From Burkholderia sp. BCC0322 (GTDB lineage: Bacteria > Pseudomonadota > Gammaproteobacteria > Burkholderiales > Burkholderiaceae): a DNA stretch of 64,000 bases. Under the pieces are notes generated by a model. That model ran no database searches, was not told the origin of the DNA, and saw only the letters and a list, made by a program, of their open reading frames with translations. Shown one piece after another: positions 15,994 through 42,379 of this stretch (its first letter is position 1; every line of letters begins with the position of its first letter). Location of the stretch: the NCBI RefSeq assembly GCF_902833045.1, contig NZ_CADFDU010000001.1, positions 1,071,927 through 1,135,926 of the forward strand, in the 5' to 3' direction. A program made the translations under genes and the position numbers.

Positions 15994-15997
<4 letters not shown>
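15575..15997 (-). CDS. tssE: T6SS baseplate protein TssE (gp25-like)
   Basis: 140 residues with a gp25-like domain: VQQNVRRILNTRAGSLKHLP, DYGLPDLTNIYKALPAS, then YEPRIRSIDVGI and FEMTCHL. TssE is the wedge component that starts sheath polymerisation in the cytosolic baseplate. It is the last gene of the left T6SS operon, overlapping clpV by ATGA. All expected conserved parts are present. Confidence 0.95.
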
Positions 15998-18708
<2,711 letters not shown>

Positions 18709-18797
18709 GTGGATAGCAGAGCAGGAAGGGAGAGGGTGTGCGTTCGCCCATGCCCATGCGAATCGAGGGGCGCGACTGCGAATGGGCGAGCGGTGGA

Positions 18798-18831
18798 GCG
18801 GAATCCGGCGCACGGGCATGCCGGATTCCGC
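18798..18831. terminator. Strong hairpin between hcp and clpV
   Basis: An 11-bp perfect stem (18798-18808 with 18821-18831) closes a 12-nt loop just after the hcp stop codon. There is no T-run, so it fits an attenuator or a 3' stabiliser of the hcp message within the operon better than a full terminator. Confidence 0.6.
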
Positions 18832-18846: not shown

Positions 18847-19332
18847 TCAGGAACGTTCGTTCCACGTGTCCTTGTGGATAATGTTGCCGTCCTTGTACGA
18901 CCACGTGATCGTCTCGTAGCGCAGTTCGACGTCTTCGAGATGGTTGTGTTTCTCGTAGTCGGGGTTCTTGATGTCGAGCATCTTCGGCTTCACGGCGACG
19001 ATCTTCACGTTGTCGAGCTTCGTGTTGAAGTACTCCTTTTCCTTGCCCGCGTCGTCGATCTTGTACCACTTGATCTCGACCGACTTCAGCGTCTGGCCGC
19101 TCGTCACGGCCTTGTACAGGTACGGCGTCGATGCGTCCGTCTCTTTCGTCAGCGTGATCGGCTTGTGCACGCGCGTGCCGGTGAGCTTGCCCGTATTGCC
19201 GTCGGTCGGAATGTGCACGCCGTGATCGAACGCGACCAGTTCGACGCTGCCTTCACGATCCTGGACGGTCACCGAACCCTTGATGTCCGCACCGCCGTCG
19301 TCCTTGAGCCACATGTAGGCCGGAATTGCCAT
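18847..19332 (-). CDS. hcp: T6SS tube protein Hcp (TssD)
   Basis: 161 residues, usual Hcp length, from ATG 19332 (MAIPAYMWLKDDGGADIKGS) with AAGGAG upstream. Conserved Hcp phrases include FDHGVHIPTD, HKPITLTKETDASTPYLYKA and VELRYETITWSYKDGN. Hexameric rings stack into the tube that carries effectors and is thrown by the sheath. It lies between the OmpA-domain protein and clpV and is flanked by hairpins on both sides, which may raise its message level above its neighbours. Confidence 0.97.
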   Translation of the reverse strand: MAIPAYMWLKDDGGADIKGSVTVQDREGSVELVAFDHGVHIPTDGNTGKLTGTRVHKPITLTKETDASTPYLYKAVTSGQTLKSVEIKWYKIDDAGKEKEYFNTKLDNVKIVAVKPKMLDIKNPDYEKHNHLEDVELRYETITWSYKDGNIIHKDTWNERS

Positions 19333-19363
19333 TTGTCCACTCCTTCTTGTTCGTACTGCGAAT

Positions 19364-19384
19364 CGCCGGAACCAAAATCCGGCG
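19364..19384. other. Small hairpin upstream of hcp
   Basis: CGCCGGA (19364-19370) pairs with TCCGGCG (19378-19384) around a 7-nt loop, 32 bp before the hcp start. Together with the hairpin after hcp it frames the gene and may mark processing ends of a stable hcp message. Confidence 0.4.
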
Positions 19385-19426
19385 CTGACAAACCCGGAGC
19401 GGATGCCCCGGGAACCAAAACGCGTG

Positions 19427-21190
19427 TTACCGCACGGTGCGAATCGAAGCGGCCGGCGCCGGCATGTCGGGCACCAGCGTGATTTCGACCCGGCGATTCC
19501 TTGCCCGTCCTTCGGACGTGGTGTTGTCCGCGACCGGTCGCGTATCGCCGTAGCCCTGGATCGCGAATTGCGTCGTCGGTATCCCGGACGCATCGACGAG
19601 CCAGTCGCGCACGGCGGCTGCACGGTCGATCGACAGCTTCAGGTTGCGCTCGGGGCGGCCCTGAGCGTCCGTATAGCCGGCGACAAGAACGCGCTTGCCC
19701 GGATGCGCGTTGATCAGTGCGAGCGCATCGACCATCGCGCGCGTGGAGCCCGGCTTCAGTTGTGCTTTGCCGCTGTCGAACAGCGACATGCTGTCCAGCG
19801 TGACGACGGCGGGCGGCGGTGCGGGCGGCTCGTAGGAGGCGATCGCGTCGTTGAGTATCGGCAGCAGTCGAGCGCCGCGATACATGCCGAACGACAGCCG
19901 GAGCGGAATGCCGATACGTGCATACCGGTCGAGCTGGTCCCGGTCCGACGAAAGGGATTTGAGCGCGTCGCGCTTCGCGGCGTCTTGCGTGGCGGGGAGA
20001 CGGTTGTAGCGCTCGACGTGCTCGCCGATTCGGGTCATCAGCGTTTCGTTGTTTTTCGCGGCGCCGCAGACGGCGATGGTGGCCGCGCAAGCAATGATCG
20101 CGACGACATGCACGACAGCGGCGACGCGCGGCGATCGCCGCGACCGGCGCGGCATCGCGTCGATCAGCGGCTGCGGCAGCGGCCATGGAGAAGGCGATGC
20201 AGGTAGCGCGGCCGGTGCGATGCCGATGCGCGATCGGACTTCGCGCTCCCATGGCTTGCCGGGGCCCGTCGTGGGGCCATGGTCGACCCAGCCGGCGCCG
20301 AACAACGGCCAGGGCGGCGCAGGCTGGCGTCGGTCCGTAAGCGTATTGAACACGGTACGGCGCGTCCATCCGATCATTGATCCGATCCCGGCGGCGCGTG
20401 CCGCGACCGTGCGACTTCCGTCGGCATGGAGGGCGTCGGATTCGGCTGCTTCGATCGCGGAGTCGAAACGGTGCATGTCCGCGATCGGCGAGCCTGCCGA
20501 TACGCCATACCACTGGGCCGCCGGCTTCGCTGGAGCGGCTGTATCGGAGAATCGCTGATAGATGGCGACGTAGCCCGGCAGTGACGCGCCGAGCATGCGC
20601 GACGTGTCTGCAACTGCCTGTCGGATGACGCGCAGCGTTTGCGACAACACATCGTCGTTCGCATGCAATCCCGGCGCGACCGACAACACGACGCAATCGG
20701 GGGCATGACCGTCCCGCCACTGGCGGACGGCGACGGCAAGGCGGGGAAGATCCTGCGGGCGATCGGCCCGCAACCAGATGGCGCCGTCTCCGACGTGGAC
20801 GAAGCGCGACCCGGTTGCGTCGCGATCGAACAAGGCGGGCAGCCCGTCTCCGGTGACGAGGGCGAGCGGCATCCTGGTGCGCAGCGCGACGGGCAGGTCG
20901 GCAGTCGCCGCCCCGAGTTGCGCAAGCACGTGCACGTTCCGCTTGCGGGCATGCGTCAATCTGCGCGAATGCAACCAGACGATCAGCGCCGAAAGCGCGA
21001 TGACGATCGCAATCAATCCCCACATGATGCCGCGGTCGACGGGCAGGACCCATCCGATGACGGCAAGCGCCAGGGCGGCCGAGATCGTCACGACCGTGCG
21101 CAGCGGGTAGCCGAGGCCCGTCAGGGCCGCGCGGGCGGCGTCGGCGTCGACGCGTGTTGGCGCCGGCGGGAGAACGGTATCGGAAGTCAC
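19427..21190 (-). CDS. T6SS OmpA-domain membrane protein with TssM-like scaffold
   Basis: 587 residues. Two membrane segments (about 32-50 and 54-72), a cytosolic region (about 75-350), a third membrane segment (355-377), a periplasmic stretch, then an OmpA/MotB peptidoglycan-binding domain (463-575; LFDSGKAQLKPGS, GYTDAQGRPERNLKLS, GYGDTRPVADNTT). The N-terminal layout copies TssM of the same cluster, and local stretches look alike (LVTGDG here, LVAGDG in TssM; PLRLSFGMYRG here, PLSARFGLNRD in TssM). It should anchor the membrane complex to the cell wall, the role played by TagL or TssL extensions elsewhere. Its start overlaps the tssL stop. Confidence 0.88.
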   Translation of the reverse strand: MTSDTVLPPAPTRVDADAARAALTGLGYPLRTVVTISAALALAVIGWVLPVDRGIMWGLIAIVIALSALIVWLHSRRLTHARKRNVHVLAQLGAATADLPVALRTRMPLALVTGDGLPALFDRDATGSRFVHVGDGAIWLRADRPQDLPRLAVAVRQWRDGHAPDCVVLSVAPGLHANDDVLSQTLRVIRQAVADTSRMLGASLPGYVAIYQRFSDTAAPAKPAAQWYGVSAGSPIADMHRFDSAIEAAESDALHADGSRTVAARAAGIGSMIGWTRRTVFNTLTDRRQPAPPWPLFGAGWVDHGPTTGPGKPWEREVRSRIGIAPAALPASPSPWPLPQPLIDAMPRRSRRSPRVAAVVHVVAIIACAATIAVCGAAKNNETLMTRIGEHVERYNRLPATQDAAKRDALKSLSSDRDQLDRYARIGIPLRLSFGMYRGARLLPILNDAIASYEPPAPPPAVVTLDSMSLFDSGKAQLKPGSTRAMVDALALINAHPGKRVLVAGYTDAQGRPERNLKLSIDRAAAVRDWLVDASGIPTTQFAIQGYGDTRPVADNTTSEGRARNRRVEITLVPDMPAPAASIRTVR

Positions 21191-21942
21191 GGCCGCTGAG
21201 CTTTCTGGACGAGTTGTGCCAGTTCCGCGTCAAGCACGCGATCCCACGCGAACCACACGCCTATCGCGATCACGCATGCCGTTCCCGCGATCGCCCACGG
21301 CGACAGGCGTCTGAGCCGGTCGATCAGCCGCGCGTTCGAGCGGTCGGTGACGAACCCCGGTTGCGAGGCCGGTCGCAACCGATCGATCCGTGCGACCAGC
21401 GCGGCGATCACGGCCTGACGTTTCGCTTCGCCTTCGTGGGTTTGCGCCGAGAGGCCCGAGCGGGCAGTGTAACGACCGCGGAACCCGAGGCCGAGCACGG
21501 CTGCATAGCATTCGAGCAGGTCGACGTTCGGCGCGGGTTCGCGCATCCGGTGCTCGATGCGGTCGTAGATGCGCGTTCCCGCATCGTGAGTGCCGAAGCG
21601 CTCGACCTGCAGCGGCCGGGATTCCCAGTTCCCCTTGTCCGACGCGGGAAGGTAACGCAATGCCGCTTCATCGATCAGCCCGCACTGGGCGAGGACGGCG
21701 TCGTCCCGGATGTCGGCGGCGATCCCTTGCGCATCGAGTGCCGTCGCGAACTGCGCGATGAGCCGGATGCACTGTTGACGCAGGTTCTCCTGGCTGTCGA
21801 CCTGCCCACCGTTCGACAGGTGGGTGACGAGCAGTGCCGTATCGCGCAGCAGCGCGCGTATCGAAGGCCCGGGCGGGCGCCTGGACGATGGCTCCCGCGC
21901 CAGCAGTGCGGATTCGTGACGAGTGGAAACGATGGTATTCAT
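21187..21942 (-). CDS. tssL: T6SS inner-membrane protein TssL (DotU)
   Basis: 251 residues from ATG 21942, which overlaps the tssK stop as ATGA. The cytosolic DotU domain (about 25-215) carries conserved phrases such as CGLIDEAALRYLP and LLECYAAVLGLGFRGRY. A single C-terminal membrane anchor follows at about 224-242 (WAIAGTACVIAIGVWFAWD). It joins TssM and TssJ in the trans-envelope complex and docks the baseplate. It has no peptidoglycan-binding extension of its own; that function sits in the next gene. Confidence 0.93.
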   Translation of the reverse strand: MNTIVSTRHESALLAREPSSRRPPGPSIRALLRDTALLVTHLSNGGQVDSQENLRQQCIRLIAQFATALDAQGIAADIRDDAVLAQCGLIDEAALRYLPASDKGNWESRPLQVERFGTHDAGTRIYDRIEHRMREPAPNVDLLECYAAVLGLGFRGRYTARSGLSAQTHEGEAKRQAVIAALVARIDRLRPASQPGFVTDRSNARLIDRLRRLSPWAIAGTACVIAIGVWFAWDRVLDAELAQLVQKAQRP

Positions 21943-23291
21943 CGGCGCAGCACCGCATAGAGTTCGATCGACGCGTCCGGAATCGACGCGGGCAGGTAGA
22001 TCTGGCAAGCGCGCGCGGCGAGCATCCGCGCATGCGCGGCGTCATGTGCGTCGAGCGCGAAATAGTGGTTGTCCAGCCTGACCGGAATGGCGCCGGGTAC
22101 CCGCTGCACGGCCTTGAGCGGAATGCCGGCCACGGCGGAATTGACGATGTGCTCGACGTCGTCCGGCGCGCCGATCTTGCACAGTCGCGGGAACTGTTCG
22201 ACGAGCTCGAATGCCGGCAGCGCGGCGTTGACGGACAGGTACCAGTCGGCCGCGCCTTCGACGATGCGCTCGTCGCGGAACTGGCCGGCCCAGGTTGTGG
22301 GCGTCGTGTGTGAAAGCCCGATCGACACGACACGCGACGGGATGATCGCGTCCAGCAGATCGCGGATCAGCGATTCGAGCGTCGCGAAAACCTCATGTGC
22401 CGCGGCGTGATCGTAAGGCGGGAGGTCGGTCAGCGACACGCGCGTCGAGAACGTGGTGAGCGATCCTGCCAACTGGGCGAGTACCTGGTACAGGCGATCC
22501 GTGGGTTGCCCGGGATGCGACGCGAGAAAGCGCAGTTGCGGCCACGCTTGATGAATGCAGTGGAGGAGCCAGAAGAGCTGGACGTCGGCGACCCCGTATT
22601 CGGCCACCTGCTCGATCCGCTCGCTGCGGCGCTCGCCGAGAAGCGCACTTTTGGCGGCGAGGATATCCGCCAGCCGCCGGATGCGCTCGATATGCAGTGC
22701 ATGACCCGACAGCGACAGGCAGGGCGGCACATATCCGCGATCGAGCTGGAACTGACCGCTCGTCGCGCGCGTCAGGCGGGCTATCGCGCATGCCGTATCG
22801 TCGGCGTGCGATTCGTACCCGTACAGCAACCGGACCGCGTGGCGCTCGGCGGCGATCTCGGTTTCCGCGGTTCCGTTCAGGTCCGCCACCTTCACGAATT
22901 CCCGGTACGCGCGACGCGGGCGGGCGAGCGCCGTTTCGTCGAAACGACAGTTGCCGCCGTTCGCATCGGGCAGCGCGAGTGCGGCGAGCACATCGACAGT
23001 CTGGGTATCGGCAGGAATTTCGCCGACGAGGTCGCGAGCGGGCGGCAGTGCATCGGCGACGGTCGTGTCGACCGGCGTTCCGTCCGGGAAGCGTAGCTGC
23101 AGCCGCGTGAGCTTCAGGCGGCCGGAGGCCAGTGCTTCTTCGTCGACGTCGACGTTCAGCGTTCCCCAGGGCGATACGGCGATGGCCGACGCGAACTGTT
23201 GCAGCGCGAATCCGTTCCAGCGGTCCTGCTGCTGGAAATGCTGCTGCGTAAGAATCAGCCCTTCATGCCAGAGCGGCTTTTCGATCCGCAT
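21939..23291 (-). CDS. tssK: T6SS baseplate protein TssK
   Basis: 450 residues with the canonical TssK start MRIEKPLWHEGLILTQQHFQ; the phrase PVRLDNHYFALD lies in the C-terminal part. TssK trimers connect the baseplate to TssL/TssM in the cytosol. It is the first gene of the left operon, reading away from the 575-bp intergenic region. No clear ribosome site precedes the ATG. A TAGAAT-like -10 element lies about 40 bp upstream on the minus strand. Confidence 0.95.
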   Translation of the reverse strand: MRIEKPLWHEGLILTQQHFQQQDRWNGFALQQFASAIAVSPWGTLNVDVDEEALASGRLKLTRLQLRFPDGTPVDTTVADALPPARDLVGEIPADTQTVDVLAALALPDANGGNCRFDETALARPRRAYREFVKVADLNGTAETEIAAERHAVRLLYGYESHADDTACAIARLTRATSGQFQLDRGYVPPCLSLSGHALHIERIRRLADILAAKSALLGERRSERIEQVAEYGVADVQLFWLLHCIHQAWPQLRFLASHPGQPTDRLYQVLAQLAGSLTTFSTRVSLTDLPPYDHAAAHEVFATLESLIRDLLDAIIPSRVVSIGLSHTTPTTWAGQFRDERIVEGAADWYLSVNAALPAFELVEQFPRLCKIGAPDDVEHIVNSAVAGIPLKAVQRVPGAIPVRLDNHYFALDAHDAAHARMLAARACQIYLPASIPDASIELYAVLRR

Positions 23292-26083: not shown

Positions 26084-28558
26084 ATGTCGATGATTTTGCC
26101 TACGCAGGCTTATGAATTGAAGCTGGCGCCGCATCCGGCGCCGTTCTCGATCCTGAAGTTCACCGGGCTGGACCGCGTGAGCCATCTTTATCGATACGAG
26201 ATCGAATTCACGAGCCCGGCGGCGGGGATTCCGATGGACCAGGTGCTGGGCCGGCCCGCGAAGTTCAGTGCCGATCCGGTCGATCCGAACATGGATTACC
26301 TGCGGAAGATGTTCGGGGAGAACGCGGCGCAGTTCAGTGCGAAGCCTGCGGCGTATACCGTTCACGGCGTGATCACGCAGTTCGACGAGTTGGAGACGTC
26401 GGCGGATGAAACGCGCTACCGGGTCGTGCTCGAGCCGACGCTGGCCGATCTCGATCGTGGTGTGACCAGCCGGCTGTTTCAGAAGCAGTCGGTCGAGGAG
26501 ATCGTGACCGATACGCTGCGGCATTACGGGTATCGCGCGGGTGTCGATTTCCGGTTTCAGTTGCGCGGGCAGTACAAGCGTCGCGAGTACGTGACGCAGT
26601 ATCACGAGACGACGTTCGCGTTCATCCGGCGCATTTGCGCGGAAGAGGGGATCTGGTTTCGCTGGGAACAGAAGAAGGATCGCGCCGTGGTCGTGTTCGG
26701 CGACGATCTGGATGCGTATGCGCGCAAGCAGCGCACGGTGCCGTATCGACGTGATTCGGGGCTGGAGAGCGCCGGCGCCGATTCGATCAAGACACTCGGG
26801 CGCGAGACGAAGCGTGTACCGGAGGCGGTGCGGCTGCATGACTACAACCATCGGCAGGCCGAGCTGTCGTTGCTGGTCGAGGAAAACACGGCGCGCGACG
26901 ACAAGACGACGAATGCCATCGATTATCGCTGGGGCGAGCATTACGAGACACCCGAAGAGGGCAAGCGGGTTGCCCGGTTGCGGCATGAAGCCTATCTGGC
27001 TGAGCAGATTACGTTCAAGGGGGTGGGCAATCCGTTCTGGCTCGAAGCCGGCGAGGTGATGCGGGTCGAACCGAGTCAGGTCGATGCGAAGCACGGGATT
27101 TTCGTGACGTCGGTGGAGTCGCGTGGCGGGCGCAGTGACGCATATTGGGTGGCGTTCGAGGGGATTCCGTCGGATCGCGTGTGGCGTACGCCAATGGCTT
27201 CGGTTTCGCGGCCGGTCGTTGACGGGATTCTGCCGGCGCGGATTACGTCGCCGGGGAACTACAAGTACGCGTATCTGACCGAGCAGGGCTGGTACGTGAT
27301 CAAGCTTCCGTTCGATCTCGACGAATGGAGCCCGGGTGGGACGAGCCGGCCTGTGCGGTTTGCGAAGCCTTATAGCGGCGACAACTACGGGCATCACTTT
27401 CCGCTGATCGACGGGGCGGAGGTGGCCATTGTCCATACGGACGGCGATCCAAATCGGCCGGTGATCATCGGGGCGATGCACGACAGCGTGCATCCGGATC
27501 TGGTCAACAACCTGAACCATACGCGGAATCTGATTCGTACGGCTGCGCGGAATGAGTTGCGGATGGAGGATAAGGAGGGTGTCGAGCATATCCACCTGGC
27601 CACGCCGAATCAGACCAGTGAGTTGAATCTCGGGCATATGGTCGATGTAGGTCGCAAGGAGCGAGGGCGCGGCGCGGAATTGCGCACGGACGGTCCGGTT
27701 GCGGTCCGAGGCAAGGGAATCTATGTCACAGCTACCGTGCAGAAAGCAGGGAGTGGAAAACAGCTCGACATGGATGATGCGCTCTCTCAGCTCGAGAGCG
27801 CGTTACAAATCGCGAAGTCGCTTAGCTCGTCGGTCGAAACTGCTAGGGCTGACGTTGCCGACACTGCGACGCAGCAGCAGGTGAATACCGAACTGAAAGG
27901 GCTGGTTCAGCCAGGTCTTTTGTTGAGTGCCCCGGCTTCTGTCGGCATTGTGACAAACAGTAGCGTACAGCTCGCTGCGAGAAACAACATTTCGGCGGTA
28001 GCAGGGAAGAGCCTCGATGTCAGCATCATCAAGAAATTCAGCGTTGCAGCCGGCGAGGCAGTCTCATTGTTCGCACAAAAGCTCGGGATCAAATTGTTCG
28101 CAGGGCGTGGTCCTGTCGATATTCAGGCCCAAAGTGACGCAATGACGCTTATGTCGGACAAGGACCTCACCGTTTCGAGCGTCGACGGGAAAGTGCGTAT
28201 CCATGGGCAACGTGAGATTGTCCTCGAGTCAGGTGGTGCTTACATCCGAATCGCAGATGGCAACGTCACCATTGGTGGTCCTGGCGACCTGATTCTCAAA
28301 GTGATCACCCTGCAAAAGCAGAGCGCGAGCTCGTTGAGCGATGCACTCAACGGAATGCCGAAGCCTGGTGGCCTCTACGACGAACAATTCACGCTTCGCG
28401 ACGAGCATACAGGTGAAGTGCTCGCGCACATGCCATACCGGATCGAAACGCCGTCGGGGCCAATTGAAGGCGTTACAGACGCCGCTGGTCGGACTGCTCG
28501 GGTGTATTCGGATAAGGCCCAGGCGCTGAAAATTTTCAAGGGCGACAGCGATGCCTAA
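26084..28558 (+). CDS. vgrG: T6SS spike protein VgrG (TssI) with DUF2345 extension
   Basis: 824 residues from ATG 26084. The gp27-like base (1 to about 380; SHLYRYEIEFTSPAAGIPMD, ETTFAFIRRICAEEGIWFRW) is followed by the gp5 OB domain (HHFPLIDGAEVAIVHTDGDP, NRPVIIGAMHDSVHP) and a C-terminal DUF2345 beta domain and tail (about 620-824). GC drops from about 62% to about 52% near 27650, at the junction into the DUF2345 part, so the tail appears to have been swapped together with the downstream cargo genes. The end overlaps the candidate effector by 8 bp, marking that protein as its cargo. Confidence 0.95.
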   Translation: MSMILPTQAYELKLAPHPAPFSILKFTGLDRVSHLYRYEIEFTSPAAGIPMDQVLGRPAKFSADPVDPNMDYLRKMFGENAAQFSAKPAAYTVHGVITQFDELETSADETRYRVVLEPTLADLDRGVTSRLFQKQSVEEIVTDTLRHYGYRAGVDFRFQLRGQYKRREYVTQYHETTFAFIRRICAEEGIWFRWEQKKDRAVVVFGDDLDAYARKQRTVPYRRDSGLESAGADSIKTLGRETKRVPEAVRLHDYNHRQAELSLLVEENTARDDKTTNAIDYRWGEHYETPEEGKRVARLRHEAYLAEQITFKGVGNPFWLEAGEVMRVEPSQVDAKHGIFVTSVESRGGRSDAYWVAFEGIPSDRVWRTPMASVSRPVVDGILPARITSPGNYKYAYLTEQGWYVIKLPFDLDEWSPGGTSRPVRFAKPYSGDNYGHHFPLIDGAEVAIVHTDGDPNRPVIIGAMHDSVHPDLVNNLNHTRNLIRTAARNELRMEDKEGVEHIHLATPNQTSELNLGHMVDVGRKERGRGAELRTDGPVAVRGKGIYVTATVQKAGSGKQLDMDDALSQLESALQIAKSLSSSVETARADVADTATQQQVNTELKGLVQPGLLLSAPASVGIVTNSSVQLAARNNISAVAGKSLDVSIIKKFSVAAGEAVSLFAQKLGIKLFAGRGPVDIQAQSDAMTLMSDKDLTVSSVDGKVRIHGQREIVLESGGAYIRIADGNVTIGGPGDLILKVITLQKQSASSLSDALNGMPKPGGLYDEQFTLRDEHTGEVLAHMPYRIETPSGPIEGVTDAAGRTARVYSDKAQALKIFKGDSDA

Positions 28559-30941
28559 GCCACTCGACAATGCACGCACCAACAGCACGAACGTCGGCTC
28601 AAGTAATGTCGACGTCAAGGTTCCTCCTGAGCCGTTGGCCGTCATTCATACTGGGACTGGAGAAATTTTCTTCATTCCGGCGAAGGACAGTACCGAATTC
28701 ACGAATCATCACAAGTCGCTGAGCGATGCGGTAGCGGAGTTCCATTCGGCAAACTATGTCGTCCAATTGCTTGACGAGCATCATGCCGAGCTATTGTGTA
28801 GGAGCGGGCCTGGCTGCCCGAGTCTCCAGCCCACCATCGACGCCCTCAAGATGGCGTTGCAGTGGCAAGATGATGCACACGCCAAGTATCGCCAGATCTT
28901 CGCCGATCTCGATCCGTTACCCGTGACATCGAAGCCAGATGCGGGAGAACCTAAATCCACTACTCCGAACGCAGAAAAGGAGAAGGAGGACAGCAACAGG
29001 CTGGACGGGGCCGGTAAGAAGCTCATCGAACTGATTGCTTTGAAGAAGCTTTCTCCGGAGGAGCAGGCGAAGAAGGCTGCCGAGGAAAAGAAAGCAAAGT
29101 TCGAAAAGGGGACCTTGAAGAAACAACTTGCGTCCGCAAAGACCTTGCCACAGCTGAAAGAACTCGGTAAATGGCCGAAGGTTCCATCTGAAACGCTCTT
29201 CTATGTCCGATCGGACAAGATCAAGACACACTGGCCCAAGGCAAAAAATCTTGACAAGACGAAGTGGAGCGATGTTCTTCGCGATGAACAGGGAAATCGA
29301 CGTTTCGATGGAAAGAAGATGCGCCGGTACGTTCTCGAGCAGGCAGACAAGAAGGGCATTGATTGGGTGAAGAAGAAGTTTCACCTGGACGACCTCGAAT
29401 TCAGTCGCAGTACGACGGTAGGACAGTGGTGTGAACAGTGGAACAAGAAAGCCGTTTGGGAGCCGAAAGGTGGCACGTGGACGGTTAAAGACGCTGCGAT
29501 CGCGGACTGGGACGCCAGCGCGAAAGCGCAACTCATGCGGTTCTCCTACGGTGCCAGCCTCAATCCGGACTTTTCGATCGTTGGAAAGCAAGCAAGCGTG
29601 CGCGCAGAAGGCCATGCGGAGATTGACCTTGCAAAAGCGGAAGCCGGCCTCAAGCTCTATTTCCCACGCAAGGAAGGATGGTTGTGGTGTCACACCGGAT
29701 CGGACGGCAAGGAATATGACCTTGTTGCAATGGTATTCGAGGCCGATCTGCGGGCTTCTGGTGTTGTAGGGGTCAGCATCGCGGCTGAACTCGCGTTGGA
29801 AGTGAAACCAGCGCTAGTCACGGAACGCGCCGCTCCCTGGGTGAAGGGAAAACCGGGTCCAAAGGGGCGGGAGGCTCGCCGGCAGAACCGTGCAGAACTC
29901 AAGAAGGGGCAGGAAATCAGTGTGGGGGCGCTGGAAGCAGGAGCAAACGTCTTTGCTGGCGCGAAGGCTGACGCGTCGCTACAGGGTTCCTTGAACTGGC
30001 GTGACCCTGCAAAGAAAAATAAGGCGTTCGCCCCGATCGCGACGATCCAGCCTCTAGCGGGCGGAGAGTTGGGTCTTGGTGGTAATGCGAATTTCTCGAT
30101 CGAGTATACCAACGGCATGTTTCGATGTACCGCGCATGCCGGCCTGTGCATCGGTGTAGGCGCGGAGGGAGCGGTGACTTTCTCAGTTGGCGTTAACGAA
30201 ATCGAATCCTTCTTCCGTTGCATTGCGACCAAGATCGCCTATGGGAAATTCCAGAATCTGCAGATATTTTCGCCTACCGACTTTGAAGTATTCGCGAAGA
30301 TAAAGGTCATGTCCGTTCTCGGCAGGAAACGCCTATCGGATTTTGTCAACAAAACACGAGATGATCTCGACCAGTTGTGGCGGGACATCTACGCGGCCTC
30401 GACGCCCGAGGATTTCCAACGAGTCGCGGCCGTTGATCCTGCCATGCTTGATTCAGTGGCTGAGGCCCGTGCAATGATTGCAAGCCGCGTTATGGATCTG
30501 TCGACGCAAGCCCAGATCCAGGCCTCCATTCCGGACGCAGTTCCGCAGGCAAAGGCAACCGTACTTTCCCTGCTTGAGAACGTCACGGCAAGGCCCGAAC
30601 TGGACAACGCGATTCAGCACATGACATCGGATGGAACAAAAGCCGGTTTTGACGCGATCATGGCCGAACTGGACGCGTTCTTCAAGCTCGGTGCCAACGG
30701 ATCTACTCAGTCGATTGAGGATGCCGATGGTGGTCCGGGGACGTCGCTACGCTCCATCGCTTTGTCAGGCGATTTCCGCGGCTGGTACGACGCATTCTCG
30801 AGCACCCTGATGGACGAAGTGCCTCACGGCCATGTGTTGCACCCCGCGACTTCGGTTGCCTACGAGATTCAGCGCGGCATGAAAGATCACCCGCTCTATG
30901 CCTCTTCCGGCTGGGGGGCTTATTACACGGATGAAGCGTAA
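28551..30941 (+). CDS. Putative VgrG-linked T6SS effector, unknown toxin type
   Basis: 796 residues, no signal peptide. An N-terminal domain (1 to about 115) is followed by a Lys/Glu-rich linker (about 120-210; SPEEQAKKAAEEKKAKFEKG), a large central region with glycine-rich and mildly hydrophobic strands (about 340-560; GVVGVSIAAELALEV, GGELGLGGNANFSIEY, AGLCIGVGAEGAVTFSVGV) and a helical C-terminal part. I recognise no catalytic motif. The position between vgrG and paar, the 8-bp overlap with vgrG and the low GC all argue for a VgrG-delivered cargo. The hydrophobic strands would fit a membrane-active toxin, but that is speculation. Confidence 0.72.
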   Translation: MPKPLDNARTNSTNVGSSNVDVKVPPEPLAVIHTGTGEIFFIPAKDSTEFTNHHKSLSDAVAEFHSANYVVQLLDEHHAELLCRSGPGCPSLQPTIDALKMALQWQDDAHAKYRQIFADLDPLPVTSKPDAGEPKSTTPNAEKEKEDSNRLDGAGKKLIELIALKKLSPEEQAKKAAEEKKAKFEKGTLKKQLASAKTLPQLKELGKWPKVPSETLFYVRSDKIKTHWPKAKNLDKTKWSDVLRDEQGNRRFDGKKMRRYVLEQADKKGIDWVKKKFHLDDLEFSRSTTVGQWCEQWNKKAVWEPKGGTWTVKDAAIADWDASAKAQLMRFSYGASLNPDFSIVGKQASVRAEGHAEIDLAKAEAGLKLYFPRKEGWLWCHTGSDGKEYDLVAMVFEADLRASGVVGVSIAAELALEVKPALVTERAAPWVKGKPGPKGREARRQNRAELKKGQEISVGALEAGANVFAGAKADASLQGSLNWRDPAKKNKAFAPIATIQPLAGGELGLGGNANFSIEYTNGMFRCTAHAGLCIGVGAEGAVTFSVGVNEIESFFRCIATKIAYGKFQNLQIFSPTDFEVFAKIKVMSVLGRKRLSDFVNKTRDDLDQLWRDIYAASTPEDFQRVAAVDPAMLDSVAEARAMIASRVMDLSTQAQIQASIPDAVPQAKATVLSLLENVTARPELDNAIQHMTSDGTKAGFDAIMAELDAFFKLGANGSTQSIEDADGGPGTSLRSIALSGDFRGWYDAFSSTLMDEVPHGHVLHPATSVAYEIQRGMKDHPLYASSGWGAYYTDEA

Positions 30942-32041
30942 TGATGAAACGATACTTGACATTAGTCTTGTGCGGGTGTTTTGGACTGCTCGCTTCGGCC
31001 GCAGTGGGCTCCGAAGAAGTCGTTCGCCCGCCGGCAATACCGCACGTTCCACCCGAGACGCAATCTCTTGAAGAGGCGAAGCAGTTGCCACGCGTGACGC
31101 AACCGACCGCGTTGCGGGACGCTTTACTTGACCTCCAGAAAGGCCCCCTTCAGGAGCGGATCGAAAAACTGAAGCATAAGGTTCTGAACGATCTCGTGTC
31201 GGTGCGAGGCGGCACATACATGATGGGCGATTTCGGCAGCGTCTTCTTGAAAAGCGGCCTCCCGTTCACGCCCTATTCGGACAACAAGCCACTTCACGAG
31301 GTTACGTTATCGAGCTTCAGAATCAGCCGTTACAAGACGACCTTTGCGGAGTTCGACGTATTTCTCGATGCGACTCATCAGCCTCATATTGATAACGACG
31401 TCCTGCCCTATCGAAATGCGCTCGTGCCTGCGGGCGCCCCCTGGCAGCAGGCAAAAGATTACTGCCAGTGGCTTGGCAAGCTGACAGGCGAGCCATTTGA
31501 TCTGCCAACGGAAGCGCAGTGGGAATATGCGGCCCGCAGTCGCGGGCAGAACTTCCTGTTTGCAACGGACGATGGGAATCTGAATTTTGGTCGCAATATC
31601 GATAGTTCCTACCAACGCAAGTTGATTCTTCCACTGGCTGACAATCTAGATAAATGGGGCAAGCTTAGTCCGACACGGAATTACCCAATTGGGATGTTTC
31701 CTGGAAACCCGATCGGACTGTATGACATGAACTCGAACGGATTTGAGTGGGTGAACGACTGGTATGCCGCTGACTACTACCAGCACAGCCCAGAAATCAA
31801 TCCTCGAGGACCCGCGAGCGGTCAATGGAAAGTGATCCGAAGCACCGCAAGTGACGAACATAAAGGGCAGTTCAACAACAATTTGAGCCGAGGCTATGCT
31901 GACCCGAGTCTGACTCTCGACGCAACTACAGGAAAAGTACATACCAATTTCTGGACCGGCAAGCCGCAGCCAATCAGTTCCGGAGCATACACATTTCGCT
32001 GCGCGTCGAGTTCGATGGAAGCGGTACACGGCAGTCAATGA
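30941..32041 (+). CDS. Periplasmic FGE/SUMF1-fold protein; candidate immunity or T6SS accessory
   Basis: 366 residues. An N-terminal signal peptide (about 1-23; LVLCGCFGLLASAAVGSEE) is followed by a linker and a formylglycine-generating-enzyme-like domain (about 90-360; GGTYMMGDFG, DLPTEAQWEYAARSRG, YDMNSNGFEWVNDWY, YTFRCASSS). Its start codon shares one base with the effector stop codon, so the two are coupled. Being periplasmic and paired with a candidate toxin suggests an immunity protein. The fold is also used by TagR, a periplasmic regulator of other T6SSs, so an accessory role is the alternative. There is no sign of a sulfatase substrate gene. Confidence 0.75.
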   Translation: MMKRYLTLVLCGCFGLLASAAVGSEEVVRPPAIPHVPPETQSLEEAKQLPRVTQPTALRDALLDLQKGPLQERIEKLKHKVLNDLVSVRGGTYMMGDFGSVFLKSGLPFTPYSDNKPLHEVTLSSFRISRYKTTFAEFDVFLDATHQPHIDNDVLPYRNALVPAGAPWQQAKDYCQWLGKLTGEPFDLPTEAQWEYAARSRGQNFLFATDDGNLNFGRNIDSSYQRKLILPLADNLDKWGKLSPTRNYPIGMFPGNPIGLYDMNSNGFEWVNDWYAADYYQHSPEINPRGPASGQWKVIRSTASDEHKGQFNNNLSRGYADPSLTLDATTGKVHTNFWTGKPQPISSGAYTFRCASSSMEAVHGSQ

Positions 32042-32115
32042 GGCGCTGTCGCATGAGATAACGGCGGCACCATGCCGGAAATGATTTTCTGTCGATATCA
32101 ACTTATCAGTCCACT

Positions 32116-32379
32116 ATGAAAGGCCTTGTATTTGAAGGTGACCCCACCGATCACGGTGGCTACGTCAAGACGGCGACGTCAACAATTATCGAGAACGGCA
32201 AGCGCGCGGCGCTTGTCGGCGATCTCGTTCATTGCCCCCGCGATGGGCATGGAACCAACCCGATTGTCGAAGGGGATCCGAACATGATTTCGGATGGGCG
32301 GGCGCTCGTCACGCATCTTTGCCGCGCAGCCTGCGGATGTCGTGTATTGGCACGCCACACCACGCTGCTCGCGGGCTGA
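32116..32379 (+). CDS. PAAR-domain spike tip protein
   Basis: 87 residues, a single PAAR domain with no toxin extension: HGGYVKTATSTIIENGKRAA, GDLVHCPRDGHGTNPIVEGD, then HLCRAACGCRVL. The His and Cys residues fit the metal-binding tip of the PAAR cone. It caps the VgrG spike and may carry or clamp the effector encoded two genes upstream. It follows the FGE-fold gene after 74 bp and precedes the next gene by 3 bp. Confidence 0.9.
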   Translation: MKGLVFEGDPTDHGGYVKTATSTIIENGKRAALVGDLVHCPRDGHGTNPIVEGDPNMISDGRALVTHLCRAACGCRVLARHTTLLAG

Positions 32380-32382
32380 TCG

Positions 32383-33564
32383 ATGTCTTGGCCGATTCCC
32401 GACCTTCCTCCACCCAAGCCGCCTGAACCTATTGATTGGCGGATGTGGCTGTTGACGTTCATTGCGATTTTTGGCTTGGGAACTGCCGCGATTCTATTTC
32501 TATGGCCGCGCGGACGTACGGCTCATCCGGAGGCGTTCTGGATTTTGCTTTTCGGTCTTCCGTCAAGTTTATTTGCCGTGTTGTTTGGGATGAGACTCAA
32601 CCAGTGGGAGCAGAAAAAACTCGAATTCGAAGAAGTCGAGCGCGAAAACAGCAGATTGATGTCCATGTGGCGTCGGTGGGCGAACAGTCGCGCCGAGGTG
32701 GTACATGCGACGACGATTCTTGGGGGTGTCGGTAGTACCGGGGGCTGGGAAGTGAGCGACGCGGCGCTACCGGTCAATCTGGACCGTCCTCGCGGAATCT
32801 CGGCGCCGAGTTTGACGGAGGGAGATCAACGCCGGAAAACGCTGTTCGAGTTGATCTCGGACCGCATGTCGGGGCATCTGGTGCAAACGCGCAATCTGGA
32901 AGTTGCGTTAATACTGGACGAAAAATCCGGCAAGGATCGTGCGAAATGGGAGGCGGTCGCACGTGAAGCTTTTTTGCAGCACGGACGTCGAGTGACTGTC
33001 GAGACGCTCCCCGATTCCACAGGCCTGGAATACTTGCAAGCGCGAATGGATACCGACACGGCATCTGCCAAATTGATCGTTGCCTGTCAGCTGTGGCAGG
33101 ACGCGAAGGAAAAGCCGTACAGCGAGGGAGTGGCTGGCATCTTGCTTCAGCGGAAGGCAAAAGCGAATCATTTGCGGCAGACGGAGGCGTCTTCAACGGG
33201 AAGGTATGTGCTTCGTCCCATGTTGTCTGCTTTGGATGAGCTAAAGAGCGACTTCAATCAGCTGCTGGATCTGCAGTTCGTGCGAGAAAAGGTCGAATAC
33301 GTGTGGCTTTCCGGGGTAGAGGACGAGGCGTGCTCCGCTGTGCAGGTTGGGGCGGGTAACCATCCCGTGACCGATAGCGCTTGTGTTCGGAATCTGGATG
33401 TCGTACTTGGGATTCCAGGCCCCGTTAATTCATGGGTCGCGTTGGCTCTGACGCTTGACATCGGTTCACGAACCGGGAGTCCGCAGTTGCTGGCAGTCGG
33501 GGACGGTGGAACGCGGGCTGCGATGTGCGTCGTGAAGTCGACAAAAAAGGACGTATCGAATTGA
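32383..33564 (+). CDS. T6SS-associated inner-membrane protein, unknown; faint ketosynthase-like features
   Basis: 393 residues. Two N-terminal membrane segments (about 20-41 and 50-69) are followed by a coiled-coil-prone stretch (about 72-95; NQWEQKKLEFEEVERENSRL) and a cytosolic domain of about 290 residues. Two stretches recall the ketoacyl-synthase fold: PYSEGVAGILLQ and VVLGIPGPVNSWVALALTLD. I see no Cys-His-His triad, so any such domain would be catalytically dead. The two-helix plus cytosolic layout and the place before tssM suggest a membrane-complex partner. It ends with a TTGA overlap onto tssM. Function unknown. Confidence 0.68.
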   Translation: MSWPIPDLPPPKPPEPIDWRMWLLTFIAIFGLGTAAILFLWPRGRTAHPEAFWILLFGLPSSLFAVLFGMRLNQWEQKKLEFEEVERENSRLMSMWRRWANSRAEVVHATTILGGVGSTGGWEVSDAALPVNLDRPRGISAPSLTEGDQRRKTLFELISDRMSGHLVQTRNLEVALILDEKSGKDRAKWEAVAREAFLQHGRRVTVETLPDSTGLEYLQARMDTDTASAKLIVACQLWQDAKEKPYSEGVAGILLQRKAKANHLRQTEASSTGRYVLRPMLSALDELKSDFNQLLDLQFVREKVEYVWLSGVEDEACSAVQVGAGNHPVTDSACVRNLDVVLGIPGPVNSWVALALTLDIGSRTGSPQLLAVGDGGTRAAMCVVKSTKKDVSN

Positions 33565-36500
33565 AGAACAAATATACGTGGGGGCGGTGGCTGTCATTTA
33601 CTGGTATTGCAGTTATCGCGACTTTCTTCGTCTATTTGACTGTTGATGCTGCGCAGTTGAACGGGTGGCTGTCGAAATACGGCAAGGTTCTCGGTGCCGC
33701 GGCGCTTGCGGTTCTGATTTTTGGGGCGATAGCGTTACCGCGGCGACGTCAGATACGACAGGAACTGCAGAACGAATCGAAGATACAAGGCCTGGAGCCG
33801 CCGAAGACGGAGGCGACTGCCGGCGGCGCCCAATCTTCCGCGGCTCGGTCCCGCGCAGCTAACCTGCATACCCTCCTGGCCGATAGACATGGCTGGCTCT
33901 GGCGTTATCGAGAGCGATGGGTGCTGGTTGCCGGAGACGGGCCGTTGGTAGGACGTCTGGCACCGGGTCTTACCGATACAGGTTATGCGATCGTCGGCGA
34001 CGCGGTCCTGTTGTACGGGAAGCAAACGAACAACGAACTCGATGCCGAGTGGCTTGGTGAGATCCGACGTTTGCGTCGCCGTCGTCCGATCGACGCGATC
34101 GTCGCGGTGACGCGCAACGAGAACGCGGCGAATGGTCGATTCGATGTCGATGGTGTTGCTGAACGGCTCGTGCGTCATGCGCGCGCCTTGCGTTGGGCCG
34201 CGCCCGCTTATCTGCTCAATGTCACCGACTTTGGCGACAAATCGTCGGGACCAGACGAGGCCATCGGCTTGACGTGGTCGAACAGCCATATCTGCTTCGA
34301 TGATATTGATGGATCTTTGCGTGAACTGGCTTACAACTTGGCGGATGACGGTGTCGAGCGGTTGAGGATGGATTCGCACGACCGCTACCCGGCTGATCTG
34401 TCTCGGTACATATCCGGTATTCAACACGGGTTCTCGAATTTCGTGGCGCAGACCGGTCAGTCCCTTTGCATGTCTGCCGCTGTGCACGGTCTGCTGTTTG
34501 CTCCGCTATTCAAGGAGCGGGAGTTGGTGCTGTCTATATCCGGTGACGATCCGGCGCCTGGTATCCAACACCGAACGATCTGGCAAACCGTCGCCGATCA
34601 CAGCCGCAAGGTTCATGGTCGCCGTGTCGGCTTTTCGCTGTCGACCACGGCCGCATGGATGGCGACTGCCGTGATCGGCTGCTGGCTCGCCGGCACGATG
34701 CTGTCCGGCTTCGTCAACCGCGCGGCGATAGGAAGTGCGGCAGACACGGTCATGAATCTCAACGAAGCCCGGGACCCGACACAGTCCCTGCAGACGCTTA
34801 CCCATCTTGAACGACAGATCGACACACTTGAAATCCACCAGCGCAACCGCGCACCGCTGAGTGCCCGCTTCGGCCTGAACCGCGACCACGCATTGCTCGA
34901 TGCCCTCTGGCCGCACTATGCCGATGCGGCCAACCGCATTCTCGTCGGCCCGATTCGCCGGCAGCTCGAGGCCCGACTGCATCAACTGGCGTCGCTATCC
35001 GACGCAGAAATCGCCAGCGGCGGCGATGCGCAAGTACAGGCCGCATACGACACGCTCAAGACCTATCTGATGCTCGCGAAGCCGGAGCACGCGGTGGCTG
35101 CATTCCTGACGCCTCAGCTCGTCGCAACGTCCATGCCGGCGCGCCCCGTCAATTCGCCGTTGTCGCCAGGCAGATGGGAGGACTTGCGGCAGCAAGCCAT
35201 TACATTCTTCACGCACCATCTGGGACCCGGTGCGAAGTCGACGGCGGCTGCGTTGGCAGTCGTTCAGGACAGTACGTTGATCGCAGCGACTCGCCAGACG
35301 GTGATCGGCGTTCGGGGCATTCAGAATTCGCGGGACGCGGTCTACCAGCAGATCCTGGACGAAGCGACGCCGAAGTACCCGCCGATATCGCTCGCCACGC
35401 TGTTGGGTGACGCGGCATCCCAGGCAGGTGCCGGTGGCGCGACAAGCCGTGGTTTGTTCAACACGACCTTGACCATACCGGGCGTATTCACGCGCGCGGC
35501 ATGGGACGAACGGATCGCCAAGGCCATCGACGAAGCCGGCGAGCAACACGACGTGTCGAGCGACTGGGTGCTTTCCGATACCAAGGCCGCCGGTCAGTCC
35601 TCGTCGACCCTAAAGGACGAGCTGCGCCAACGCTATTTCGACGACTATGCGCGAGCCTGGGCACAGTTCCTCAACAGCGTGCGCTGGCAACCGGCGCCGA
35701 CGCTTTCCGCCACGGCCGATCAACTGACGTTGCTGGGCGATCCACAACGTTCTCCGCTCGTCGCGCTGATGAATGCGATCGTCTATCAGGCGGGCACGGG
35801 CGCCAACACGCAGTCGCTGTCCGACACGCTGATCAGCAAGGCGCAGCAGCTCGTCGGCGCCGACGAAAAAGATCCGTCGAAGCAGGTCAAGCCGCAGCTC
35901 GCACCGCTGGCGGGCGCGTTCGGCCCGATCCTGCGTCTGACCGGCAGCGATCTCGTCTCCGTTGCGCCGGCAAACGGTAAAACCGCCGTCGCGCAAATGG
36001 CCGCGACCGGTGACCTGAGCCTCGCCCGATATCTGGAGCGCATCACGGCCATGCGCCTGAAGACTTCGCAGATTGTCTCCAGCGCCGATCCGGACGCGGT
36101 TGCGCGACTGGCCGCCCAGTCGGTGTTGCAGGGCAAGACATCCGACATCGCCGATAGCCGTGACTATGCGAGCCGGGTCGCCGCGAGCCTTGGCGAGCAA
36201 TGGTCCGGCTTCGGCGCACTGTTCCGCGCGCCGTTCGACCAGGCATGGCAGGTCGTCGTGCAGCCGGCCGCGTCGAGCCTGAACGAGATCTGGCGCGCGG
36301 CGATCGTGGCCGACTGGAACAGGTCGTTCGGCGGCCGCTACCCGTTCGCGGATTCGGACAACGACGCGTCGCTGCCCGAAATGGCGCGCTTCATGCGGCC
36401 CGATGGCGGCGTGATCACGCAATTCGTGACGACGCAGCTCGCCGGCGTCATCGAGCGGCAGGGCGACCGCTGGGTGCCCGCGCAGGGCACCGATTCCGGT

Positions 36501-37334
36501 GCGCTGACGATCGATCCGGGTTTCCTGAGCGGGTTGAACAAACTCGCGCGCATTTCGACGGTGCTGTTCCCGTCCGGTGACGCGCGCGTGCGCTACGAGT
36601 TGCAGGCGGTGCCGACGCCGGGTGTCACCGACATGCGATTCGTGTTGTCCGGCCGCGAATTGCACTACTTCAACCAGAAACAGGAATGGACGCCGTTCGA
36701 ATGGCCCGGCCAGTCGCTCGAAAACCTGTCGCATATCGAATGGCAGACCGAGCAGGGCGGCTTGCGGACGGCGCTCGATTCGCAGGGGCGCTTCGGACTG
36801 GTTCGCCTGTTCGAGCGAGCGAAGGTCACGCAACAGGACAACGCACGCTACCTGCTGACCTGGACGCCGGACACCAGCCAGGGCATCCCGCTGAAGGTGC
36901 AACTGCGCAGCGAGGCGGGCGCGGGCCCGCTCGACGTTCTCCAGTTGCGCAACTTCGTGCTGCCTGCACGGATTTTCATGACCGGAGCGGCGAGCGCCGG
37001 GCCTAAGGTGTCGACGGCCAGTCCGCCGCCGTTGCCGGCTGCGGCGATTGCCGCGGCCAGGCACGCCGCCGTGCCGTTGCCGCCGGGGCTGCCGGGTGCG
37101 ATGACGTGGCCGGATGAAGCGATGCCGGTGGAGGCCGAAAAGGTTTCCCGTCAGCCGACCGCGATAGCGGAAGCGCGACCGAGTACACCTGTCGAGCCCC
37201 CCCAAAAGAGCGATCCGCGGATGGCGCTGTCCTCGCTGGCGACGGCTTCGGCATCTTCCGACGCCTCCATCAAACCGTTCGGACACGCCCTCCGTCTGCT
37301 GGGCGACGCATTTGCATTCCGGGACCTGCCATGA
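33561..37334 (+). CDS. tssM: T6SS membrane-complex protein TssM (IcmF)
   Basis: 1257 residues from TTG 33561, preferred because AAAGGA lies 8-9 bases upstream and the codon overlaps the previous stop; a GTG at 33525 would add 12 residues. Membrane segments lie at about 10-30 and 43-60, then a cytosolic domain, a third segment near 362-382 and a long periplasmic part. The P-loop site reads LVAGDGPLVGRLAPG (about 123-137): the Lys-Thr/Ser of Walker A is missing, so NTP binding is unlikely. It spans the periplasm and contacts TssJ and TssL. GC is low at the start (about 43% near 33600) and normal from about 34000. Confidence 0.94.
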   Translation: MKNKYTWGRWLSFTGIAVIATFFVYLTVDAAQLNGWLSKYGKVLGAAALAVLIFGAIALPRRRQIRQELQNESKIQGLEPPKTEATAGGAQSSAARSRAANLHTLLADRHGWLWRYRERWVLVAGDGPLVGRLAPGLTDTGYAIVGDAVLLYGKQTNNELDAEWLGEIRRLRRRRPIDAIVAVTRNENAANGRFDVDGVAERLVRHARALRWAAPAYLLNVTDFGDKSSGPDEAIGLTWSNSHICFDDIDGSLRELAYNLADDGVERLRMDSHDRYPADLSRYISGIQHGFSNFVAQTGQSLCMSAAVHGLLFAPLFKERELVLSISGDDPAPGIQHRTIWQTVADHSRKVHGRRVGFSLSTTAAWMATAVIGCWLAGTMLSGFVNRAAIGSAADTVMNLNEARDPTQSLQTLTHLERQIDTLEIHQRNRAPLSARFGLNRDHALLDALWPHYADAANRILVGPIRRQLEARLHQLASLSDAEIASGGDAQVQAAYDTLKTYLMLAKPEHAVAAFLTPQLVATSMPARPVNSPLSPGRWEDLRQQAITFFTHHLGPGAKSTAAALAVVQDSTLIAATRQTVIGVRGIQNSRDAVYQQILDEATPKYPPISLATLLGDAASQAGAGGATSRGLFNTTLTIPGVFTRAAWDERIAKAIDEAGEQHDVSSDWVLSDTKAAGQSSSTLKDELRQRYFDDYARAWAQFLNSVRWQPAPTLSATADQLTLLGDPQRSPLVALMNAIVYQAGTGANTQSLSDTLISKAQQLVGADEKDPSKQVKPQLAPLAGAFGPILRLTGSDLVSVAPANGKTAVAQMAATGDLSLARYLERITAMRLKTSQIVSSADPDAVARLAAQSVLQGKTSDIADSRDYASRVAASLGEQWSGFGALFRAPFDQAWQVVVQPAASSLNEIWRAAIVADWNRSFGGRYPFADSDNDASLPEMARFMRPDGGVITQFVTTQLAGVIERQGDRWVPAQGTDSGALTIDPGFLSGLNKLARISTVLFPSGDARVRYELQAVPTPGVTDMRFVLSGRELHYFNQKQEWTPFEWPGQSLENLSHIEWQTEQGGLRTALDSQGRFGLVRLFERAKVTQQDNARYLLTWTPDTSQGIPLKVQLRSEAGAGPLDVLQLRNFVLPARIFMTGAASAGPKVSTASPPPLPAAAIAAARHAAVPLPPGLPGAMTWPDEAMPVEAEKVSRQPTAIAEARPSTPVEPPQKSDPRMALSSLATASASSDASIKPFGHALRLLGDAFAFRDLP

Positions 37335-41860: not shown

Positions 41861-42379
41861 ATGTTCCATCGAATGAGTGCGGCCGCCGCTGCCGCCGTAT
41901 TGCTGCTGTCGGGTTGCGGTGCCTGGCAGTCCGTGTCGGACGCGTCGTCGAATGCGTATCGCGCCGTATTTTTCAAGCAGGTGAAGGTGCTCGACGTGGA
42001 TCTTTCCGCGCGCGCCGCACTGAACCCGGACGACGCAGGGCGGCCGACATCGGTGGCCGTTCGCGTCTATCAGTTGAAGGACCGCAAGCTGTTCGACGGG
42101 GCGTCGTACGACGATCTGTTGAAGAACGACCGGATGGTGCTTGCCCAGGATTTGCAGGCGGATATGTCGGCTGTTGTAAACCCCGGTGCTTCGTCGAGTT
42201 TGTCTCAGCCGATGCAACGCGAGACGGCGTATGTGGCGATCGTGGCGTTGTATCGCGTCCCCGGAGCCGCCGGAGACTGGAGACGAGTTATCGAGAAAAA
42301 GAAGCTTGATCCGGATAAGCCGTTACGCCTCGATCTGACGTCGAGCAGATTACTGATGACGGAGGACATGCCTAAGTGA
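41861..42379 (+). CDS. tssJ: T6SS outer-membrane lipoprotein TssJ
   Basis: 172 residues with a lipoprotein signal: MFHRMSAAAAAAVLLLSGCG, so Cys19 should be lipidated. The mature part has the transthyretin-like TssJ pattern (RPTSVAVRVYQLKDRKLFDG, PMQRETAYVAIVALYRV). It holds TssM at the outer membrane. GGAGG lies 5 bases before the ATG. With it the cluster has all 13 core tss genes. Confidence 0.94.
   Translation: MFHRMSAAAAAAVLLLSGCGAWQSVSDASSNAYRAVFFKQVKVLDVDLSARAALNPDDAGRPTSVAVRVYQLKDRKLFDGASYDDLLKNDRMVLAQDLQADMSAVVNPGASSSLSQPMQRETAYVAIVALYRVPGAAGDWRRVIEKKKLDPDKPLRLDLTSSRLLMTEDMPK

Follow-up and report, generated by a model that had tools for sequence, protein, structure and literature searches.

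The tagL gene and its cluster

The window analysed here, a stretch of 64,000 nucleotides from Burkholderia sp. BCC0322, contains all 13 core genes of a type VI secretion system (T6SS), as recognized by Pfam and NCBIfam, placed around a gene that we identify as tagL. The tagL gene (positions 19427–21190, minus strand) has a GTG start and encodes a protein of 587 amino acids, as judged from its reading frame and translation, its OmpA domain and its homologues. The cluster genes tssE, clpV, hcp, tagL, tssL and tssK lie on the minus strand, and tssB, tssC, vgrG, tssM, tssA, tssF, tssG and tssJ on the plus strand. The minus-strand genes include tssK (21939–23291; TIGR03353) and a tssL of the DotU type without an OmpA domain (21187–22008; PF09850, TIGR03349), the stop of which overlaps the start of tagL by 4 bp in the open reading frame (ORF) calls. 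On the other side of tagL are hcp (tssD), in an open frame at 18847–19623 (TIGR03344), and clpV (tssH) at 15994–18819 (TIGR03345); the Hcp match covers residues 98–257 of its frame, and the gene start therefore falls inside it. On the plus strand, tssM (33525–37334) encodes a protein of 1269 residues which lacks a Walker A motif in a motif scan and is matched by PF06761, PF21070, PF06744 and, under the cut-off, TIGR03348, and the tssJ lipoprotein gene is located at 41861–42379 (PF12790).

Two further observations concern the plus-strand genes. The window TssM extends about 120 residues past the end of the TIGR03348 match at residue 1147 with a Pro/Ala-rich sequence (36966–37334). The interval between vgrG and tssM (28551–33564, plus strand) encodes a 796-residue protein that Pfam and NCBIfam leave unmatched at E ≤ 1e-5, a protein resembling formylglycine-generating enzymes (PF03781) and a 393-residue protein without a Pfam match, which perhaps constitute a cargo module. 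Other T6SS-7 clusters are reported to contain a phospholipase D domain; none was recognized in this interval by Pfam or NCBIfam.

In the predicted layout of the protein, a pair of membrane segments near the N-terminus is followed by a cytosolic domain, a third membrane segment and a periplasmic OmpA-type domain. By hydropathy, the three segments span residues 33–51, 55–73 and 356–374 (21038–21094, 20972–21028 and 20069–20125, respectively, all on the minus strand), while those of the window TssM are found at residues ~22–40, 53–71 and 379–397, in agreement with an earlier sequence-only reading of the locus, in which the layout was likened to the first part of the TssM in the same cluster. The same reading had proposed a peptidoglycan-binding domain fused to the TssM-like head, and an OmpA domain is indeed found at residues 470–566 (19493–19783, minus strand; PF00691, E 1.1e-21). 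Its residues Asp508 and Arg523 are invariant in an alignment of all 53 homologues; residues of this kind in OmpA domains bind peptidoglycan. The best matches of the domain among solved structures are 7rjj, 5m38 and 7bba, the last of which carries the entry title 'Putative type VI secretion protein' and is, we presume, a TagL domain. OmpA is the sole Pfam family found in the protein at E ≤ 0.1, a limit at which the IcmF-related, helical and IcmF_C domains were not found. Single-sequence Pfam and NCBIfam searches likewise return OmpA-type domains alone at their stated limits, and the solved structures listed match in the OmpA domain alone (best 60 of 77 and 60 of 84), so that any homology to TssM is invisible without profiles.

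On the strength of its sequence, the protein is TagL, an orthologue of the known T6SS cell-wall anchor; the assignment follows from the layout, the position after an OmpA-less TssL and similarity over the full length both to proteins from other bacterial orders and to an E. coli gene at the same place in its cluster. The gene adjoins tssL, followed by hcp and clpV, as is characteristic of tagL, and the order tssK-tssL-tagL-hcp-clpV is common to the window and the E. coli T6SS locus (L144). The nearest homologue found, from Burkholderia sp. D-99, is 89% identical, and TagL-type proteins outside the Burkholderiales (genomes G376, G092 and G330) share 32–35% identity with it in alignments that begin at residue 19 or 34 and end at residue 578. 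The cluster to which the gene belongs is of the Burkholderia T6SS-7 type, of which, according to the available part of PMC6612558, a TagL orthologue is a marker and which resembles the E. coli Sci-1 cluster. The published topology of TagL, as given in the accessible text of PMC8253398, is the topology seen here, and the OmpA-type domain is described there as binding peptidoglycan. As far as these partial sources go, TagL from the EAEC Sci-1 cluster (SciZ) and from Burkholderia T6SS-7 has the same three membrane segments, the last two of which enclose the cytosolic domain, the same C-terminal OmpA-type domain, an OmpA-less TssL and the same gene order; in these described features no essential difference from the window TagL was seen.

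A search of 398 genomes of the phylum with the whole TagL sequence matched 397 of them; most of these matches were due to the OmpA domain, and a head-only profile was used afterwards. TagL-type proteins are present in at least 10 of the 398 genomes, with the best three candidates per genome scored. In a few loci there are signs of either gene decay or an assembly break: an incomplete tagL that contains an in-frame TAG and lies some 13 kb from a tssM (G010:C125:26864-27877), a tssM in pieces by a contig end beside tagL (G028:C346), and a 1019-residue tssM frame without IcmF_C beside tagL (L207, genome G330).

Relation of the TagL head to TssM

The region preceding the OmpA domain was compared with TssM by aligning profiles of the two heads with hhalign. 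In the first comparison, of 65 TagLs with 29 TssMs, a local alignment over 299 columns had a probability of 96.4%; the values listed for other set-ups of the same comparison include 22.9%, as well as 2.8% and 0.1% when global alignment was forced. The four motif pairs matched by eye in the sequence-only reading all recur in this local alignment in the same order, two of them column for column (LVTGDG with LVAGDG and PLRLSFGMYRG with PLSARFGLNRD) and a third, GYVAIYQRFSD with AYLLNVTDFGD, in the first 9 of its 11 residues, while the fourth, FVHVGDGAIWL with AIVGDAVLLYG, occupies the same place but is shifted by two columns. Against a diverse set of 30 TssMs, each checked by HMM, the 65 TagLs gave a higher probability, 98.5%. 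When the profile was built instead from 10 non-Burkholderiales TagLs (9 of them belonging also to the main set of 65), the probabilities were 97.6% with the diverse TssMs, 96.7% with Walker-A TssMs, 89.4% with Burkholderia-type TssMs and 27.6% with a set of just 5 P-loop-less TssMs. For the whole head, 69 TagLs and TagL-like proteins compared with 75 TssMs reached 98.7% over 338 columns, against control values of at most 1.6%.

A resemblance of this kind might in principle be produced by layout alone, with TagL an unrelated three-pass membrane protein that has converged on the arrangement and membrane composition of TssM. Hydrophobic segments can mislead in this manner, and the TagLs do have weak matches to several membrane-type Pfam models. 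IcmF-related_N has subthreshold matches in 17 of 53 TagLs (best E 0.0027), the window protein not being among them, and DUF4131, probably an artefact of the membrane segments, is matched by more of them (21 of 53); in the head-only set the numbers are 9 of 36 (best E 0.0011) and 10 of 36, respectively. In neither the 53 full-length TagLs nor the 36 heads does any of the IcmF models of Pfam attain its cut-off. Against convergence, the probability never exceeded 1.6% (score 25, compared with 80 for the real profile) in 100 shuffles of the TssM columns within 40-column windows, a procedure that leaves the hydrophobic layout intact. Three reversed-profile comparisons stayed at or below 0.8%, and ten other families from the window, of 2 to 41 sequences each and set beside the TagL–TssM comparison as a control, reached at most 0.6%. 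The regions without membrane segments also match on their own. The cytosolic parts alone, compared with wide TssM profiles, gave 84–95% in 12 of 12 comparisons (E 7e-6 to 6e-8; at most 0.9% in 100 shuffles of the cytosolic columns), the opposite of the missing profile match that the sequence-only reading had named as refuting, and 17–54% against the narrow profile of 29 TssMs. The stretch following the third segment, on its own, gave 92% with the narrow TssM set, 86% with full-length TssM and 95–97% with the wide sets. The kinship of TagL and TssM therefore does not rest on the membrane segments, and convergence is already contradicted to the point of being barely credible.

A narrower relationship would confine the shared part to the third segment and the periplasmic stretch, leaving the cytosolic domain of TagL with another origin. 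The distribution of signals along the protein offers something to this proposal. An HMM built from 59 TssMs and no TagL, run unfiltered against 5199 ORFs of at least 100 residues from loci L001–L055 and the window, recovered every one of the 55 TagLs at E ≤ 1e-3 and 45 at E ≤ 1e-5, and the next ORF apart from TssMs and TssM fragments had an E-value of 0.046. The block after the third segment is the strongest single signal, being present in all 55 TagLs, whereas the cytosolic block was detected by HMMER in 34 of the 55; in the window TagL (E 7.6e-7) the signal resides in the third segment and the block behind it, and the cytosolic block, at E 1.9, is not significant. The modest cytosolic values with the narrow TssM set point the same way. 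They are outweighed by the cytosolic matches to the wider profiles, by the subthreshold IcmF-related_N matches, and by the order of the blocks, which is that of TssM in all 40 TagLs with two or more of them, and we consider a separate origin of the cytosolic domain improbable. The reverse search agrees with a kinship of TagL and TssM: an HMM of 36 TagL heads with the OmpA domain left out had, in 29 genomes, 17 matches beyond TagLs and TagL-like proteins, all 17 in ORFs that also contain IcmF_C. Among 329 genomes of the class, with up to five candidates scored in each, the same HMM found matches in five; one of these has both a TagL and a TssM match, and the three examined from the remaining four are TssMs by Pfam (G578 being left out).

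By profile comparison, the TagL head is homologous to the TssM head, and the first three quarters of TagL share ancestry with it. The aligned cytosolic core pairs TagL residues ~104–213 with residues 120–265 of TssM L116; in the window TagL, the core without a P-loop, which aligns with the NTPase-like region of TssM in the cytosol-only comparisons as well, spans residues ~104–214 (20549–20881, minus strand). The TssM-like stretch after the third segment, as delimited by profile comparison and the TssM-only HMM, covers residues ~376–449 (19844–20065, minus strand) and includes the sequence GMYRG at the position of GLYQG or GLNRD in TssM; L089–L092 have GLYQGERL in its place. TagL has accordingly retained the membrane hairpin, the NTPase-like cytosolic core, the third segment and the start of the periplasmic part (~70 residues, as far as the GLYQG-like motif), all of which are common to TssM (IcmF), and differs from it in lacking the Walker A motif and the IcmF-related, helical and IcmF_C domains and in possessing an OmpA domain. 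In place of the long periplasmic part that follows in TssM, TagL has a short linker and the OmpA domain.

P-loop loss and the origin of the TagL clade

None of 78 TagL and TagL-like rows, 69 of them distinct, contains the Walker A pattern in a motif scan. The pattern is likewise absent from the P-loop position in all 30 examined TssMs that lie within 25 kb of a typical TagL on the same contig, a count that leaves out at least two further pairs (G024:C7 and G010:C125); in the TssM paired with the TagL of L078 the pattern occurs at residue 99, away from the P-loop position at 146. Ten TssMs with a TagL on another contig, kept out of the count, also lack it (0 of 10). In contrast, the motif is present in 35 of 37 TssMs without a TagL found nearby, the absence of TagL referring, for many of these, to the matches listed in the whole-sequence search, with part of their genomes covered by the head profile as well. 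The paired sequences are related and largely of one clade, and the count is consequently not a test of independent events. Absence of Walker A from TssMs beside a typical TagL was not found stated in the literature searched.

The association has exceptions. Two Walker-A-less TssMs, L141 (genome G088) and L142 (genome G128), come from genomes without a TagL-head match, and 19 kb of sequence flanking L141 on one side (L208) has no TagL match. Divergent TagL-like proteins of 561–567 residues with an OmpA tail are encoded at L204:1415-3097, L205:1322-3022 and L206:702-2384; their profile matches TagL with probabilities of 100% and 99.7% and the diverse TssMs with 96.9%, compared with 15.1% for these three sequences against the 29 Burkholderia-type TssMs. 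This family is possibly TagP. All three members, found in three of 29 genomes, lie about 11–12 kb from Walker-A TssMs, which indicates that a protein with a TssM-type head and an OmpA domain can accompany a TssM with a P-loop. The rule that TagL always occurs with a P-loop-less TssM was rejected on these grounds, and the P-loop-less companion marks the common TagL subtype instead. With the Walker A motif missing from TagL and from its companion TssM alike, the two heads in this subtype probably have a structural role and are not driven by ATP. The P-loop-less companion marks T6SSs of a subtype for which an ATPase step by TssM is unlikely.

In the window, the sequence GD replaces the P-loop in both proteins (LVTGDG in TagL and LVAGDG in TssM), which is what might be expected if TagL were a recent duplicate of the head of the cluster's own TssM. 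A FastTree phylogeny on two blocks (170 columns) places 66 TagLs and the three TagL-like proteins in one clade (0.97) separate from 72 TssMs, with Walker-A types as the TssMs nearest to TagL and the companion TssM far from it. The tree is weak because its branches are long, but the placement leaves a recent duplication very unlikely, and the common GD is probably a parallel change, given that the companion is not the nearest relative. In this tree, TagL looks like one old clade and not a recent copy of the TssM beside it; of the duplicated TssM head suggested by the sequence-only reading, the kinship is upheld and a copy made recently from the neighbouring gene is not.

Anchoring of the membrane complex

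Taken together, it is very probable that the locus carries a T6SS-7-type tagL, the product of which has a head of TssM ancestry and serves as an OmpA-type wall anchor for the TssJLM complex. In such a model, TagL would reside in the inner membrane alongside TssM and TssL and would be held at TssL by contacts of the kind made by the TssM head, while its OmpA domain would grip the peptidoglycan and thereby fasten the TssJLM complex to the wall, countering the recoil as the sheath contracts. A direct TagL–TssL interaction is reported in PMC8253398, and PMC3213119 describes TssJ, TssL, TssM and TagL as an immunoprecipitable complex with a TssL–TagL interaction, as well as interactions of TssM homologues with TssL homologues. 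A more far-reaching version, in which TagL is a second, wall-gripping TssM that takes TssM-equivalent places round TssL in a mixed TssM/TagL ring, with the NTP-dependent step that is reported for some TssMs either absent or replaced by wall attachment, is a plausible but tentative and on the whole doubtful proposal. A TssM-type head in TagL points to contacts on the TssM-facing side of TssL and on TssM itself, and it raises a concrete question, that of the stoichiometry of the membrane complex in systems that carry TagL.

The sequence-only reading had regarded anchoring through the OmpA domain as a distinct way of attaching the complex. As the protein corresponds to the anchor TagL known from PMC6612558 and PMC8253398, to the extent that their accessible text describes it, this mode of anchoring is not new. 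The architecture, too, has precedents: TagP has been described as derived from TssM and equipped with a peptidoglycan-binding domain, an account repeated for TagP1 in the consulted part of the review PMC10433429, and another review names TssM-like proteins with peptidoglycan-binding domains '(TagL/TagP)' in the passage available (PMC5813230). The description of TagP and this grouping mean that the architecture is known and that a link between TagL and TssM is at least implied. The published account of the cytosolic domain of TagL, in the text accessible, is confined to topology; an alignment or test of the TagL–TssM kinship was not found in the literature searched, leaving aside the 2019 TagL paper and the 2010 SciZ and TagL/TagP papers, and may be published. 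TagP1 of the Pseudomonas putida K1-T6SS, compared here by its description, is characterized by a TssM-derived head with an OmpA domain replacing the periplasmic C-terminal part, a combination that is also seen in TagL. The evolved TssL, a long form with an OmpA domain, brings the same type of wall-anchoring domain to the same complex as TagL, but its cytosolic part is DotU, which in the window is encoded by the separate gene at 21187–22008. The evolved TssL, TagL and TagP thereby represent three published anchoring solutions in which OmpA domains are carried by different inner-membrane parts.
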